From the NCBI GenBank assembly GCA_945872155.1, contig CAMBYK010000003.1, positions 1 to 36,252 of the forward strand: 36,252 nucleotides of DNA. Direction: 5' to 3'. The notes below the pieces were generated by a model. It had not been told where the DNA came from and ran no database searches. It worked only from the letters and a program-made list of their open reading frames with translations. The position numbers and the translations under genes were made by a program. Shown here one piece after another: positions 12,811 through 33,201 of the stretch. This DNA comes from an uncultured Candidatus Saccharibacteria bacterium. Its GTDB lineage: Bacteria; Patescibacteriota; Saccharimonadia; Saccharimonadales; Saccharimonadaceae. Within the stretch, counting starts at the first letter, position 1; every line of letters begins with the position of its first letter.

Positions 12811-12894
12811 TTTCCCAAACGCACTACCACCACTCTTTCCTTTACGGTATTCAAGCCACTCTTCGGAGTTCTTTTCAAATTTCCTAATTATCAT
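12799..12894 (-). pseudogene. YqaJ-type exonuclease, N-terminal stub
   Basis: 31 codons starting at an ATG that overlaps the stop of the Rad52-like gene. The peptide contains SEEWLEYRKGKSGGSAFGKL, which fits the N-terminal motif of YqaJ/lambda-exonuclease-type viral recombinases (a Trp-Leu-x-x-Arg-x-Gly segment followed by a small Ser-rich turn that starts the active-site helix). The frame then runs into the tRNA relic and stops. The catalytic domain is missing, so the gene is dead. Exonucleases of this family normally partner a single-strand annealing protein, which is the adjacent upstream gene. Confidence 0.6.
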
Positions 12895-13591
12895 TTAGCG
12901 CTCCTTTGACTTGGTTGGATTTAATAATGCGGTCTTTAGCGATATTTTTTGCAGTTATTACCGTTTCTGCTTCTCGGATTTCTTTTGGTAGGTGGATAAA
13001 GAAACTTTGCAATTCTGGCATTGTTTGAATCTGCCTCATTCCAGCAAGAGCCTCATCAATCCTCGTCTGAAGTTCGTCGTCTTGTTGTTTTGGGCTTTCA
13101 AAGAGGTTGAAATAGCTCATTGTATTTTTGCGGTTCAAATCACGTCCAAACAACTTGCCAAGCTCCTCTGCGGCGTCTTTGATAGCAAAAGCCTTGGCGG
13201 CCGGTGCGCCAGTAGCTACGGCGTCTGATTTAATATGCGCTAGATCGGCAGCTGAGAAGCCCTTATCGGTCTTTAATGGGACAGCTCCAACTCCGTCGTG
13301 AAAACTCCATTCGTTGGTGATGGGGTTTAGGTAGTGCAGCCTGACCGTGCAACAAATACTCTGTGCTAGCAGAGTTATACTTTTAATTTCTACGCGCCAT
13401 TGTTGAAATAACACGTCAAGTAGTGTCTCTACCCTACCTATTGGTAAATACTTAACTCCCTTGGCGAATGGATGGTCCTCAATATAAGCTTTGGGTGGAT
13501 TTTGATTCAAGATGTCTTTAAGCTCACCCTGCTTTTTGAACTCTATCGTGCCGCCTTCAATTATTACAGGTAAGTCCTTAGCGGTTTTCAT
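12884..13591 (-). CDS. Rad52-type single-strand annealing protein
   Basis: 235 residues from the ATG at 13591. The core KYLPIGRVETLLDVLFQ, then WRVEIKS, GVGAVPL and AFAIKDAAEELGKLFGRDL fits the Rad52/Sak-type annealing fold: strand-rich centre, then an Ala-rich helix ending in (F)GRDL. Such proteins pair complementary single strands in phage recombination. The C-terminal ~80 residues are a charged helical tail. It is the last intact gene of a minus-strand string of very small ORFs; its start lies inside the preceding 53-aa gene, and its stop overlaps the YqaJ-like stub. An AAGGA sits 12 nt before the ATG. An earlier in-frame ATG at 13618 is possible but would add an overlap and has no better ribosome site. 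Confidence 0.7.
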   Translation of the reverse strand: MKTAKDLPVIIEGGTIEFKKQGELKDILNQNPPKAYIEDHPFAKGVKYLPIGRVETLLDVLFQQWRVEIKSITLLAQSICCTVRLHYLNPITNEWSFHDGVGAVPLKTDKGFSAADLAHIKSDAVATGAPAAKAFAIKDAAEELGKLFGRDLNRKNTMSYFNLFESPKQQDDELQTRIDEALAGMRQIQTMPELQSFFIHLPKEIREAETVITAKNIAKDRIIKSNQVKGALNDN

Positions 13592-13893: not shown

Positions 13894-14087
13894 TTAGACT
13901 CTCCTTTTATACAGACAAAATCGCGGTTATCGCCATACATAGTACCGGTGGCTTTCCAGGTACAGTGATTGGCTTTTGCATAAGCGGCCATGTTGGCTTC
14001 TTGCTTAATACCGCTAGCAATAACTACTAGAAGAAGCACGGTTATAATAAACACTATTGCTCCTATAGTTTTAAGATTATTCTTCAT
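13890..14087 (-). CDS. Small membrane-anchored protein with paired cysteines (65 aa)
   Basis: SD AAGGAG lies 7 nt before the ATG at 14087. A transmembrane helix (about residues 7-26, IGAIVFIITVLLLVVIASG) is followed by a short external domain with NHCTWKATGTMYGDNRDFVC; the two cysteines are 18 residues apart and could form a disulphide. The start overlaps the preceding 26-aa gene and the stop overlaps the next start (ATGA). I do not recognise the family. Confidence 0.65.
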   Translation of the reverse strand: MKNNLKTIGAIVFIITVLLLVVIASGIKQEANMAAYAKANHCTWKATGTMYGDNRDFVCIKGESK

Positions 14088-14157
14088 GGTTCGCTCCTTT
14101 TTTGAAGCTCACATTTATTTTTTGTGTTTTGCTGAGATTCTTGATCTTAATCTTCAT
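14077..14157 (-). CDS. Basic 26-aa micro-peptide (paralogue of the dcw-cluster peptide)
   Basis: GAGGAG lies 7 nt before the ATG at 14157; stop TAA at 14077, overlapping the next gene. The peptide starts MKIKIKNLSKTQKINVSFKK and ends in an acidic GANHEE tail. Its segment NLSKTQKINVSFK matches NKSRAQKIKVNFK of the micro-ORF at 31494-31559 in 8 of 13 residues, with different codons at several identical residues (for example AGC/TCA, ATA/ATC, GTG/GTA). That, together with the SD and coupling, argues for a real peptide. Function unknown; it is the first gene of the minus-strand recombination operon. Confidence 0.55.
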   Translation of the reverse strand: MKIKIKNLSKTQKINVSFKKGANHEE

Positions 14158-14429
14158 CTCTTCTCTCCTCTCTTTACATCTTTGGTTATCTTGCCGAGCT
14201 GGATGACCTAACCAAAATGAAACAAATAACTGGTTGGTTTGCTTGGTGGACACCGTAGATTTGATGACTTTATGAAGCCGAATCTCATTTAGATTGGTTC
14301 GACCTCAATGGAATCATCAAAATAGCCACCCCTTTGCGCTGGGTGGCTATTTCAAAATCCGAAAATCAGCGCAAAGGCGATTTACGAATTCATTTTTAGA
14401 TGTGTTCTATCTGAATAGCTGAAATTGGC
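14158..14429. other. Non-coding spacer with a strong hairpin and possible pseudoknot
   Basis: No credible gene lies between the micro-peptide start and the phoH promoter. At 14320-14352 a perfect 12-bp stem AAATAGCCACCC / GGGTGGCTATTT encloses a loop CTTTGCGCT, and the same loop is complementary over 10 bases (CCTTTGCGCT, 14331-14340) to AGCGCAAAGG at 14368-14377. The plus strand lacks a T tract after the stem; the minus strand has TTTT, so it could serve as a terminator for leftward transcripts. Confidence 0.6.
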
Positions 14430-28227: not shown

Positions 28228-29250
28228 CTAGATAATCCCGCCAGCGGCCGCCATAAATATCCCAATAATGGCAAAAATTCCCGCAATCACCCAAAACCTC
28301 ATCACAATTTTAGCCTCACCCCAACCCTTCGCTTCCAAATGATGATGAATTGGCGCCGAAATCAATAATTTTCTCTTAAAAACTCGCTTCCAAACCATCT
28401 GGAGCAGACTAGAACCAGCTTCCACCACCAACAAAACGCCAATCACTGGCAAAAGGAAAAACGCATTCGTCATCATCGCAATTACGCCCAGGCCTGAGCC
28501 TAACGCAAAAGAGCCCACATCGCCCATCATAAACCTTGCTGGCGGTATATTAAACCAAATATAAGATAGCAACCACCCCATCGTAGTAAAACAAAATCCT
28601 CCCAGCATCCACTGGCCACGGAAAAATGCAATCACACCAAAGGCCCCGTAGGCTACCATCATCAATCCACCAGCCAAACCATCCAATCCATCCGAAATGT
28701 TCACGGCATTACTCGTAGCCACCACCGCAAAAGCAAACAGCAGCATCATCCCCAGAGCCCCCAATTCCAAATCACCTACAAACGGCACATGGATACCCGT
28801 CCAAGCAAGCTTAAAGGCAAAAAACCAGCCTAGCGCCAACCCCACCAAAGTAATCAAAGCAAACTTCACCGGCGCCCGCAGCCCGGCCGCGCCCTTTCCA
28901 CTGCCGAAAACGTTTATAGCGTCGTCAATCAGGCCGACAGCCCCACCGATCATAAAACCAGCCAGCGGTAGCCAAGTCTGAGCGCGATCTAAGTTAGAAA
29001 TCCAAGTCACTAAAAATACCGTGGCTACGCCCACTACACCAGCCATTGTCGGGAATACACGCTTAAATTTATGCGCGTGCAATTTAGTCATAATCGGCAA
29101 GCTATCGCCTTGAGCCGTAGTTTGTTTCTGCTTCTTCCAAAACTTGTATTTATAAGCCACATGCGTGTAAAATGGCGTCAAAAAAGTCGCCATCAAGAAA
29201 GCTCCCAGTGCCAAAATCAACCCAAAAAATAGCTCATCTTTTATATTCAT
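28228..29250 (-). CDS. mraY: Phospho-MurNAc-pentapeptide translocase MraY
   Basis: 340 residues with about ten membrane helices. Transfers phospho-MurNAc-pentapeptide to undecaprenyl phosphate, giving lipid I. Motifs: GLIDDAINV (Mg-binding Asp pair), NISDGLDGLAGG, FMMGDVGSFALG and the cytoplasmic PIHHHLEAKGW. The ATG overlaps the PBP stop (ATGA), indicating coupled translation, and ftsW begins right after its stop. Confidence 0.96.
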   Translation of the reverse strand: MNIKDELFFGLILALGAFLMATFLTPFYTHVAYKYKFWKKQKQTTAQGDSLPIMTKLHAHKFKRVFPTMAGVVGVATVFLVTWISNLDRAQTWLPLAGFMIGGAVGLIDDAINVFGSGKGAAGLRAPVKFALITLVGLALGWFFAFKLAWTGIHVPFVGDLELGALGMMLLFAFAVVATSNAVNISDGLDGLAGGLMMVAYGAFGVIAFFRGQWMLGGFCFTTMGWLLSYIWFNIPPARFMMGDVGSFALGSGLGVIAMMTNAFFLLPVIGVLLVVEAGSSLLQMVWKRVFKRKLLISAPIHHHLEAKGWGEAKIVMRFWVIAGIFAIIGIFMAAAGGII

Positions 29251-30980
29251 AGTGTTTCCTTCGGTTTTATTTTTAGATAATCCAACATATAGTTATTAAT
29301 CTGATTAAAAATTGGCAACGCATCTGCCTCTCCAGACATTTGTCGACCATCTCCTAGTATTCTAACCATAATTACGTATTCTGGCAACTCGTCTTCTATT
29401 CCACCAAAACCCGCATAGCTTGCGATCGTCTCCTCCATAATGTATTTCCCATCCCGAATCACCTGTGCCGTACCAGTTTTACCACCCACATAATACCCTG
29501 GTCGATCAGTTCCGCGCAGCCTTGCCATTTTGCGCACCCCGTATAACATCTCTCGCATCGTCGAGCTCGTGCTTTCATTCACTACCGTGCGTACCGATTT
29601 CCTAGGCTTAGCTTTCACAAAGCCTACCTCATCTTTCACCTCTCCGGCCACCACTGTCGGCGTATAATAATGTCCGCCATTCACCAAAGATGAAAAGGCA
29701 GCCGCCACCTGCACCATCGTCACATTCAAGTTTTGACCAAAAGTCATATTAGCATAACGCGCATTGCGCCCGTCTCCCGTATTCGGACCCACCAACATGC
29801 CTGCCGATTCTGCTAGCTCTACTCCAGTTCTCTGCCCTAGACCAAACTTATCGTGATAGTATTCATATAACTTCTGTCTCCCCCGAGCCGTAATATCAGT
29901 CGAGCTACCACTTAGCCACCTCAGCGCCTGAATGCTCCCCGTGTTCAAAGAAAAATCCAACGCCGTTTGCATCGACACTGTCCCAATCTGCCCCTTGTAG
30001 GCATTCTCAATCGGCCAACCCTCTATATAAACTTTACCAGTATTCTCATACACGCTGTCTGGCTTCATTGCGCCGGTATCAATTGCTGCTGCAAAAGTAA
30101 AAGCCTTTAAAATACTGGCCGGCTCATAAGCATCCACCAACACATTATTTTGATAATCTTCCATCCCCTTCACATTGCCATAATTTTCTGGTTGGTAATT
30201 CGGCAAATCAGCCATTGCTAAAATCTGCCCATTACGCGGATTCATCACAATTGCACTTGCCTTATCTCCTCTAGATGCCTTGATGCTTTCTGCTAAAATT
30301 TTTTCCGTGTTTCGCTGGATGTTTCTATCAATTGACAGCACTATTTTTTTGCCATCTTGCGCTGGTACTCGCACATTCTCTTTTCCAATCGTCAAAGGGA
30401 TATTATTTACGTCCTTCACCGTTTTTAGTAATCCATTCTTGCCTTTCAAATCTTTGTCAAATGCCCCCTCCACCCCATACTGCCCAGTGCCATCCGCATT
30501 CACAAACCCCAATAATCTAGAGCCCATCTCCCCTTCCGGATAAACTCGTTTCGTTCCCTCTTGCATCCATACGCCCTTTAAATTGGCCTTTTTAATTGTC
30601 TCCGCCTCTTTTCGCATTACGTTTTTAGCCACCACAAAATATCGCCTCGTGCGATCCTCAAACACCTTTTCCCAAGATGCTAACAATTTCGGTTTTATCA
30701 CCTCGTCCAAGAGTTTTTCCGTCTTCTTCGGGTTCGCCTCCATCGGGTCCACTAGAACCGTCCACACCGTCGCATTCATTACCACCGGCGTCGGTTCATC
30801 ATCATCCATCATATAAATCTCGCCTCGTTCCGCTACAATCATATCGCGCATCACCTGTTGTTTCGAGGCTGCCTTCACCCAAGCGTCATGCTCTATTATC
30901 TGAATCAAAAATAACCGTATTCCTATCACGGCTACGGCTACAATTACTAATAATTTCAAAGCTTTAAAGCGATGCTTCAT
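29247..30980 (-). CDS. Penicillin-binding protein transpeptidase (FtsI/PBP2-type)
   Basis: 577 residues, class B monofunctional transpeptidase that cross-links septal peptidoglycan with FtsW. After a short N-terminus with a transmembrane helix (about 9-26) come a pedestal domain and the catalytic domain with all three motifs: S289-I-L-K292, S344-L-N346 and K501-T-G503 (GGKTGTAQ). No PASTA repeats. The position between the ftsL-like gene and mraY supports a division role (FtsI). It has its own -10 6 nt before the start, so it may be transcribed independently of ftsL. Confidence 0.93.
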   Translation of the reverse strand: MKHRFKALKLLVIVAVAVIGIRLFLIQIIEHDAWVKAASKQQVMRDMIVAERGEIYMMDDDEPTPVVMNATVWTVLVDPMEANPKKTEKLLDEVIKPKLLASWEKVFEDRTRRYFVVAKNVMRKEAETIKKANLKGVWMQEGTKRVYPEGEMGSRLLGFVNADGTGQYGVEGAFDKDLKGKNGLLKTVKDVNNIPLTIGKENVRVPAQDGKKIVLSIDRNIQRNTEKILAESIKASRGDKASAIVMNPRNGQILAMADLPNYQPENYGNVKGMEDYQNNVLVDAYEPASILKAFTFAAAIDTGAMKPDSVYENTGKVYIEGWPIENAYKGQIGTVSMQTALDFSLNTGSIQALRWLSGSSTDITARGRQKLYEYYHDKFGLGQRTGVELAESAGMLVGPNTGDGRNARYANMTFGQNLNVTMVQVAAAFSSLVNGGHYYTPTVVAGEVKDEVGFVKAKPRKSVRTVVNESTSSTMREMLYGVRKMARLRGTDRPGYYVGGKTGTAQVIRDGKYIMEETIASYAGFGGIEDELPEYVIMVRILGDGRQMSGEADALPIFNQINNYMLDYLKIKPKETL

Positions 30981-31336: not shown

Positions 31337-31368
31337 TTTTTTATTTTTCTCGCTGTTTATTTTTTAGT

Positions 31369-31410
31369 CTGCGACTCGGAGCATGAAAAACCATGCTCCG
31401 ACACTCGCAG
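31369..31410 (-). other. Long hairpin between the micro-peptide gene and ftsL
   Basis: On the minus strand CTGCGA pairs with TCGCAG and, after an internal loop (GTGT versus AG), CGGAGCATG pairs with CATGCTCCG around a GTTTTT loop: 15 pairs in all. There is no T tract after it on the minus strand, so it is not a standard terminator in that direction; it may protect or process the transcript, or attenuate ftsL. Confidence 0.7.
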
Positions 31411-31493
31411 GAAAGTCATTTTTCTAACACTTTTCCCTACTCTAATAGGTCCTAAAAAGTCCGCCGATCAAAAACGGCCTCTGTAGGTAAAAT

Positions 31494-31559
31494 TTACTTG
31501 AAGTTTACTTTGATTTTTTGTGCGCGTGATTTGTTCGCAACTACGATTTGTTTTGGCAT
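31494..31559 (-). CDS. Basic 21-aa micro-peptide in the dcw cluster
   Basis: AAGGAGG, 4 nt before the ATG at 31559, is the strongest SD on this strand; the frame is 21 codons and ends TAA at 31494. The peptide begins MPKQIVVA and ends NKSRAQKIKVNFK: seven Lys/Arg and no acidic residue. The tail matches 8 of 13 residues of the island micro-peptide at 14077-14157. It sits between rsmH and the ftsL-like gene, followed by a big hairpin. It is below the size cut-off of normal annotation. It may be a leader peptide, a nucleic-acid-binding peptide or a partner of a core machine; none of this is shown. Confidence 0.55.
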   Translation of the reverse strand: MPKQIVVANKSRAQKIKVNFK

Positions 31560-31604
31560 ATAGCCTCCTTTTTTTGTTTTTATTTTATCAATGAGAACAG
31601 GTAG

Positions 31605-32480
31605 CTAACGCTTGCGCGCCAGTCTTAGTTTTGCGCTACGTGCCCTCGGATTGATACCTAATTCAGAAGGCCCCGCAATAATTGGTTTTTTGTTGATAAT
31701 TTCCATTTCCGATTCTTCACCCCAGCCACTTGCTTCTTTCATATACTGCTTCACCAGTCTATCCTCCAGGCTGTGAAAAGTGATAATTCCTAGCCTTCCG
31801 TCTTTCTTCAACAATTTTGCGATTAACGGCAGCGTCTGCGCGATTTCTCCCAGCTCATCGTTCACGGCGATTCTAATCGCTTGAAAAGTCTTAGTCGCTG
31901 GATGAGTCTTGCGATATCCCATCCCACCAGCAATTCCGTCTGCTAGCTGTTTAGTGCTCTGCCACGGCCGTCCATGCACGATTTTGCGTGCAATTTTATG
32001 CGCCAGCCCAGGTTTTTCTTCGCCATATTTTACCAAAATCTCCACCAAGTCACGTTCACTCCACTTATTTACAATACGTTCCGCCGTCAAATCCTGCTCC
32101 TGATCCATTCGCATGTCCAGCGGTCCTTCTTTCGTAAAAGAAAACCCCCGTTCGCCTCGGTCCAATTGCGGAGAAGAAACTCCAAAATCCGCCAATATCA
32201 TATCAAAAGTCATTCCGTACTCGATAAATTGCAGCACTGCACTATAAAAATCCGACTTTACAATCTTTACGGGTTCACCTTGGTACTTCCCGCGTAAATA
32301 ATCTATCGCAAAATCATCCCGGTCCACCAAGACCGACTCTTTATAATTCTGTGTTGCCTCCAAAATCCGACTCGCGTGCCCAGCGTATCCAGCCGTCAAA
32401 TCAAGATATGATTCTCCTGCCTTCGGCGCCAGCCCAGTCAAGACTTCAGATAGTAATACTGGTTGATGAAGTTCATTCAT
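31605..32480 (-). CDS. rsmH: 16S rRNA (cytosine1402-N4)-methyltransferase RsmH (MraW)
   Basis: 291 residues. S-adenosylmethionine-dependent methylation of C1402 in the 30S decoding centre. Motifs: LHQPVLLSEVLTGL at the N-terminus, YLDLTAGYAGHASRIL (SAM loop; usually DxTxGxGGH), MILADFGVSSPQLD, GFSFTKEGPLDMRMD and the C-terminal IITFHSLEDRLVK with ARSAKLRLARK. The start MNELHQPV at 32480 agrees both with the family and with the TATAAT 6 nt upstream; an earlier ATG at 32513 lies upstream of the promoter and is rejected. It heads the dcw cluster; no mraZ precedes it. Confidence 0.96.
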   Translation of the reverse strand: MNELHQPVLLSEVLTGLAPKAGESYLDLTAGYAGHASRILEATQNYKESVLVDRDDFAIDYLRGKYQGEPVKIVKSDFYSAVLQFIEYGMTFDMILADFGVSSPQLDRGERGFSFTKEGPLDMRMDQEQDLTAERIVNKWSERDLVEILVKYGEEKPGLAHKIARKIVHGRPWQSTKQLADGIAGGMGYRKTHPATKTFQAIRIAVNDELGEIAQTLPLIAKLLKKDGRLGIITFHSLEDRLVKQYMKEASGWGEESEMEIINKKPIIAGPSELGINPRARSAKLRLARKR

Positions 32481-32486
32481 CCTTCT

Positions 32487-32492
32487 ATTATA
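32487..32492 (-). promoter_or_regulatory. -10 box of rsmH (dcw promoter)
   Basis: TATAAT on the minus strand, then AGAAGG (6 nt), then ATG at 32480. The AAGG next to the start could still act as a weak SD if transcription starts early. Confidence 0.6.
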
Positions 32493-33201
32493 CATCCGTT
32501 TGAGATCGCCCAACTAGAAACTTCAGCGTGTTTGTTTTTGTTTGTTTTTTGTTTTATTACACAAATAAATAGCCACGATTGAAAGGCCTGCAGCCCATCG
32601 TATGTCATGACTCGTTGAGAGTTTATTGTGTGTGTTCAATTAGAGTTAATTGGGAGGTGTTTTTTCGAGGTACCCATGGTTTTGATAACGCGTATCCTAA
32701 ACGCGCACCGAAACTCCTAGTTGGTCAATCTCAAACTTTGTTAATGTGCGTGCAAAAAGCTATTGGTTCTTAGTCAATCTAATGACTTCGTAGTTCTCTC
32801 TTGTCTCGCCTTTGACTTTGTGCATTTTGCTTTCTCTTAACTTTTGCTCTTTTTCTGTGGTTTTTGTTTTATTTTTGCCACTGACCTTAGTTTATAGCCT
32901 GCCCAAAATAAAAGCAATACTATTTTGCCACAATTTCTATTCTTTCCTCACATAATCGTGGAAAAGCAAATACTATAACAGAGATAAGTTTTACACAAGC
33001 CTGTGCAAAACTATCGTTTATTTTTCTTGACCATCCGCCCCTCGCATCTGTTAAAGCCCCGCAAAACCCTGCCTTCCCTACCATCATTTGCCAAAAAACA
33101 CAAAACATTATATTAAAACCGAACAAAGCTCACCGGCCGACTCAACCAAAATCGCCTTCTTTCCCCTCTTGCTTTTTATCAAAATTATTTTCTACCAATA
33201 C
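32493..33201. other. 700-nt AT-rich gap without a convincing gene
   Basis: Begins with a T/G-rich low-complexity stretch (32528-32557). A short plus-strand frame at 32579-32773 contains RGTHGFDNAYPKRAP, faintly like the HGxDN segment of nucleotide pyrophosphatase/phosphodiesterases, perhaps a gene relic. A 12-bp imperfect palindrome (AGTTTTACACA / TGTGCAAAACT) lies at 32987-33012. A minus-strand TATAAT (near 33107-33112) faces the gap. No mraZ is found in the place expected for it. Confidence 0.5.

Follow-up and report, generated by a model that had tools for sequence, protein, structure and literature searches.

A conserved micropeptide gene between rsmH and ftsL in the dcw cluster of Saccharimonadia

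Several classes of very short bacterial proteins have been characterized. Minimal ribosomal proteins are found in other clades, namely bTHX of Thermus and bL37 and bS22 of mycobacteria; MciZ and SidA are division micropeptides encoded by regulated accessory genes; and ErmCL and TnaC are leader peptides of translational attenuators. The micropeptide of the Saccharibacteria described here resembles the first group in its size (20-35 aa), mostly basic character, restriction to one clade and omission by annotation, but differs in that no sequence relation to it was detected in PDB chains, that some of its members are near neutral, and that any binding to the ribosome is putative. Like MciZ and SidA, it is very short and linked to the division machinery; unlike them, it is a fixed element of the rsmH-ftsL junction throughout the class and matches no Pfam or NCBIfam family. 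With ErmCL and TnaC, it shares its length, a Shine-Dalgarno (SD)-led open reading frame and a location 5' of a hairpin and a downstream gene, but it is conserved over the full length with a variable C-terminus, is kept without the hairpin and appears to be coupled to the upstream gene. No relative of the peptide, and in particular no known ribosomal protein, was detected among the families of Pfam and NCBIfam or among PDB chains; hence no solved ribosome shows the peptide. In the open-access literature we found no report of an rsmH-ftsL micropeptide gene, although reports elsewhere are possible; a paper on Saccharibacteria genetics does not mention rsmH, mraW, ftsL or unannotated ORFs.

The micropeptide gene and its distribution

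The window analyzed here is a stretch of 36,252 nucleotides from an uncultured Candidatus Saccharibacteria bacterium (contig CAMBYK010000003.1). An earlier note on this DNA described two minus-strand micro-ORFs, one between rsmH and ftsL and the other in a mobile island, and both are indeed present with the coordinates, strand and sequence given there (Table 1). The assignment of the first to the rsmH-ftsL interval holds as well, with rsmH identified by its Pfam domain and ftsL by synteny; the latter name is synteny-based because the gene has no Pfam match and adjoins an ftsI-type PBP gene. The SD of the micropeptide gene ends four bases 5' of the ATG, and an SD with an A-rich leader recurs across the loci of the family. 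The rsmH gene itself likely starts at the ATG at 32480 rather than at the TTG at 32513, judging from the sequence AGAAGGATGAATGAACTTCATCAACC. Directly upstream of the dcw cluster, the window encodes a KwaB-like protein (Kiwa defence, PF16162; 33291-34265, minus strand).

Table 1. Coordinates of the micropeptide gene, the island micro-ORF and associated features in the window
Feature	Position	Strand	Evidence or remark
Micropeptide gene, 21 aa, MPKQIVVANKSRAQKIKVNFK	31494..31559 incl. stop codon	minus	sequence and class-wide conservation
SD of micropeptide gene, AAGGAGG	31564..31570	minus	A-rich stretch 5' of SD
rsmH (mraW), 16S rRNA methyltransferase	31605..32513	minus	PF01795, E=2.3e-89
Structured RNA upstream of rsmH, 245-290 nt	32498-32742	minus	also in most of loci L003-L031, L059-L061, L200 and L204
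Spacer between micropeptide gene and ftsL	31360..31493	minus	divergent copy of genus-level structured RNA element
Presumed ftsL, 113 aa	30995..31336	minus	synteny, 5' of ftsI-type PBP gene
ftsI-type PBP	29247-30980		directly 3' of presumed ftsL
Island micro-ORF, 26 aa, MKIKIKNLSKTQKINVSFKKGANHEE	14077..14157	minus	possible relative; sequence, profile score
SD of island micro-ORF, GAGGAG	14165..14170	minus	

To trace the gene in relatives, rsmH was located first and the DNA 3' of it was read. A homologous SD-led ORF of 19-27 aa follows rsmH at all of the approximately 117 Saccharimonadia loci read, two of which are divergent. Within the genus of the window, every locus read encodes MP[KR]QI..N[KR]SR.Q..KV.F[RK] or a close variant preceded by an SD, one genome having MPRKITITSKSRAEKVQVKFVK. 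Peptides similar to MPIQVKNLSRAYKVKVRV or to MPIHIPVQNxSVETKVTVRFK occupy the same place in 37 further genomes that belong to the same order but to different families, and in many genera of the family besides that of the window; MSIKVKDQSPRARKLKVRIVK-like peptides are encoded 3' of rsmH in other families of the class. The two divergent loci encode MALRIQKVTRKKRLTVNRPQQLYSKL (L098) and a 31-aa ORF that begins MLIPVSIIRHDPRLVPVRQ (L099) and was left out of the peptide set. One genome (G432) contains two rsmH loci (L163 and L188), each with its own micropeptide, reflecting either a duplication or mixed genomes.

The class profile recovered the ORF, at 17-38 bits, in nine of nine Saccharibacteria loci that had not contributed to it (L200-L208). 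By contrast, it was found in none of 100 outgroup loci (29 from other Patescibacteria and 71 from other bacteria), where the DNA 3' of rsmH scored at most 8.3 bits; in the 29 Patescibacteria loci outside the class, rsmH is directly followed by ftsL or there is no such ORF. Conservation at all of the approximately 117 class loci against 0 of 100 outgroup loci is far above chance. The earlier note had named the lack of a conserved frame after rsmH as an observation that would speak against its claim, and what is seen is the opposite: frame, SD and position are kept class-wide. A search with the same profile that ignored synteny identified the micropeptide in 229 of 295 class genomes (genome-wide E<=0.02), and the remaining genomes were probably missed through the loss of sensitivity inherent in a short query, given that two of them (G125 and G175) were read to carry the gene.

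Coding signature, coupling and flanking RNAs

The amino-acid pattern of the family, M-[PSTA]-[IVKR]-x-[IV]-...-S-R-A-x-K-[VIL]-x-V-[RKN]-[VF], spans the whole peptide, N-terminus included. The most variable position is the C-terminal residue (K, R, C, F, V, G, L, I, T or A), and the stop context is also poorly conserved. The peptide set comprises 108 distinct sequences of 19-27 aa, in 102 of which residue 2 is P, S, T or A, in line with Met removal. The net charge in this set ranges from -1 to +8 and is mostly +4 to +6, so that the description of the peptide as basic fits the usual member but is not universal, the charge falling to -1 in a few cases.

Nei-Gojobori proportions within the genus are 0.66 for pS and 0.145 for pN (pN/pS 0.22), and the in-frame pN/pS is 0.32 for the order, 0.52 for the family and 0.32 for the class; these ratios are rough, synonymous sites and third positions being close to saturated, yet they are clearly specific to the frame, since shifted frames of the same DNA give 0.86-3.08. 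The low in-frame against high shifted-frame ratios indicate that selection acts on the peptide, in agreement with the earlier proposal for the dcw copy. Frame-specific purifying selection, a conserved start codon and an SD are thus all found, as in a protein-coding gene.

At approximately 26 loci, the start of the micropeptide gene overlaps the rsmH stop or lies within 5 nt of it, and in some of these the SD is inside rsmH, which suggests that synthesis of the peptide depends on rsmH being translated and that translational coupling of the two genes is frequent. The spacer on the other side, towards ftsL, can be as short as about 37 nt or as long as 390 nt; it usually contains a strong hairpin, after which an A-rich single-stranded segment leads up to the start of ftsL. 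In the order-level loci L063-L097, this strong hairpin lacks a U tract and is again followed by the A-rich strand, an arrangement present in most clades. The spacer hairpin may be a cistron insulator or an RNA-stability element. In family f91, the hairpin has been lost in several members and the micropeptide retained; no stable structure was found in the spacers of L160, L161, L164, L167 and L188, where the peptide is kept.

In the window's genus and in the related genus g48, the rsmH-micropeptide pair is flanked by two structured RNAs, for neither of which a plausible Rfam family was found at relaxed thresholds. The RNA between the micropeptide gene and ftsL, of about 120 nt, shows covariation, contains ATGACCTTCC as an invariant stretch, has a loop near TTACTTATAGCTCTG that is conserved, and is present in one copy per genome in g1 and g48 only (L005-L031, e.g., L012 and L025). 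The copy in the window is degenerate, having lost the conserved apical loop, and the RNA model R1 had no match in the window's own genome. In the RNA upstream of rsmH, a long helix joins the two ends (GTTTGAGATCG..CCAACTAG ... CTAGTTG..CGATCTCAAAC); of its 55 pairs predicted by RNAalifold from 29 sequences, 31 have compensatory changes on both sides, and scanning of four loci at E<=1 yielded no plausible Rfam match. A TATAAT-like box lies between this RNA and the rsmH start. Located 5' of the same RNA in the window (32760-32825, minus strand), as well as in L009, L059, L060 and L061, is another micro-ORF, itself preceded by an A-rich leader and encoding peptides such as MHKVKGETRENYEVIRLTKNQ, MTEVKVNEEYDYEVVYLSK and MRKKINVENQSQAYQVVTLTKR, several of them with a V-x-x-L-T/S-K tail; it is absent in L012 and L020.

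The island micro-ORF and viral relatives of its operon

The second micro-ORF had been proposed to be a paralogue of the dcw micropeptide. The count of eight identities among 13 tail residues is correct. With the genus profile, it appears as a weak second match in the genome (14104-14151, E=0.38); with the class-wide profile, it is the only other match in the genome, at E=0.003 and over the full length from its own ATG. Among 554 distinct SD-led ORFs of 15-35 aa from Saccharibacteria loci, its score of 20.3 bits is within the family range, and the next non-family ORF reaches 9.3. The island ORF therefore scores like a family member, but its homology is only suggestive: second matches at E<=0.02 occur in 8 of 295 class genomes, and chance alone should yield about one such match in every few hundred genomes.

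The gene at 12884-13591, designated Rad52-type in the earlier note, could not be established as such: its one match is the PHROG phrog_15333, to which no function is assigned, and searches of Pfam and PDB gave no convincing hit. It has relatives in six viral contigs, and in four of the six, a 124-125 aa protein that starts with MKIKVKDLSKGVEKVPVRI or similar is encoded two genes upstream of the phrog_15333 protein. The N-termini of these proteins were considered as relatives of the island ORF and rejected: they are look-alikes that score 6.7-9.0 bits, within background. Furthermore, no copy was found near the phrog_15333-type gene of G511, the other class genome that carries this gene. The island ORF may be a true paralogue that became mobile, with a role also in a phage-derived recombination operon, although our own judgment leans somewhat against it. 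The viral protein itself (L192, L194, L195 and L196) is uncharacterized and has no clear Pfam or PHROG match.

Candidate functions and biological significance

These observations are probably best explained by a genuine gene encoding a micropeptide of 19-27 aa that is ancestral to and retained throughout Saccharimonadia and acts in trans. Under this scheme, the peptide would be translated together with rsmH, and the finished product would act in trans, conceivably by binding, close to where RsmH works, the 30S subunit or one of its assembly intermediates. This last step is tentative and, even if the peptide acts in trans, we doubt it more than we trust it; its form, a micro ribosomal protein or an assembly peptide, is a guess. 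A role related to the 30S subunit and RsmH is nevertheless our best guess because of the coupling to rsmH, a charge that is usually positive, and the observation in the literature that the 30S factors Era and RbfA are mostly absent from Saccharimonadia, whereas RsmH is retained in CPR (PMC12641178). The charge of down to -1 in a few members fits rRNA binding poorly.

In an AlphaFold model of an RsmH-linker-peptide fusion, built by reading through the in-frame stop, the RsmH blocks mostly have pLDDT >90 and the peptide, at about 50, is undocked and forms no strand; the underlying alignment is shallow, with 24 rows. An RsmH-bound form therefore finds no support in the read-through model. When the peptide alone was modeled with a read-through tail, only one strand was predicted (residues 14-18), paired with the artificial tail at a pTM of 0.22, so that the model gives no stand-alone beta-hairpin. 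A resemblance to the N-terminal hairpin of ubiquitin, seen by eye, was set aside, the pattern being generic.

The position just 5' of ftsL also fits a cell-division or a regulatory role. By analogy with the unrelated MciZ, which acts on FtsZ, the peptide could be a trans-acting division micropeptide that adds a beta strand to a protein of the divisome or cell wall, such as FtsL, FtsI, FtsA or FtsZ; short division inhibitors provide a precedent, and the dcw location, an alternation of hydrophobic residues that would suit an edge strand, and the strand predicted by AlphaFold are all compatible with such a role. However, the partner of that strand is the artificial tail, and expression appears to be tied to rsmH rather than to division genes, which makes this role improbable in our view. 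We give similarly little credence to a cis-acting regulatory leader (uORF), the translation of which, or stalling of the nascent chain, would control ftsL-ftsI via the downstream hairpin or structured RNA. Location directly 5' of ftsL, a length (19-24 aa) typical of leader peptides, the strong hairpin 3' of the peptide in most clades and the larger covarying RNA in genus g1 would suit a leader, but no conserved stall site was found, the N-terminus being conserved and the C-terminal residue and stop context the least so. Nor is structured RNA present family-wide, as the f91 members that keep the peptide without the hairpin attest; the distance to ftsL is far from constant, and coupling is to the upstream rsmH. 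It is because the peptide outlives the hairpin, varies most at its C-terminal residue and is coupled to rsmH that we favor a trans-acting peptide over an arrest-type leader. Finally, a conserved nucleotide signal with the ORF as its by-product, which the conserved structured RNAs on both sides in the genus might suggest, can be considered refuted and is hardly credible, given that residues are kept while third positions are near saturation, that shifted-frame pN/pS is 0.9-3.1, and that the peptide is class-wide but the downstream RNA element occurs in g1 and g48 only.

A broader proposal for the trans-acting peptide, namely that a class-defining core micropeptide translated with RsmH would belong, as an unrecognized part, to the ribosome or the machinery that assembles it (or to the divisome), perhaps in place of lost factors such as Era and RbfA, and would have been borrowed by mobile elements, is unlikely to hold in full.

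A gene of about 21 codons, too short for routine annotation, is a conserved core micropeptide gene of Saccharibacteria, located after rsmH in essentially all of their genomes that were examined but in no other bacterium of the comparison, and it sits in a widely conserved bacterial gene cluster. Saccharibacteria are tiny parasites that live as episymbionts dependent on a host, and most of their genomes are well below 1.5 Mb. Near-universal retention in such small genomes, together with absence from annotation and from other bacteria, strongly recommends the micropeptide as a candidate for a function that is essential and specific to the lineage. Given that genetic tools and Tn-seq exist for cultured Saccharibacteria (PMC10633639), its essentiality and its target can now be tested. 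More generally, length cut-offs in annotation hide core genes in Patescibacteria.
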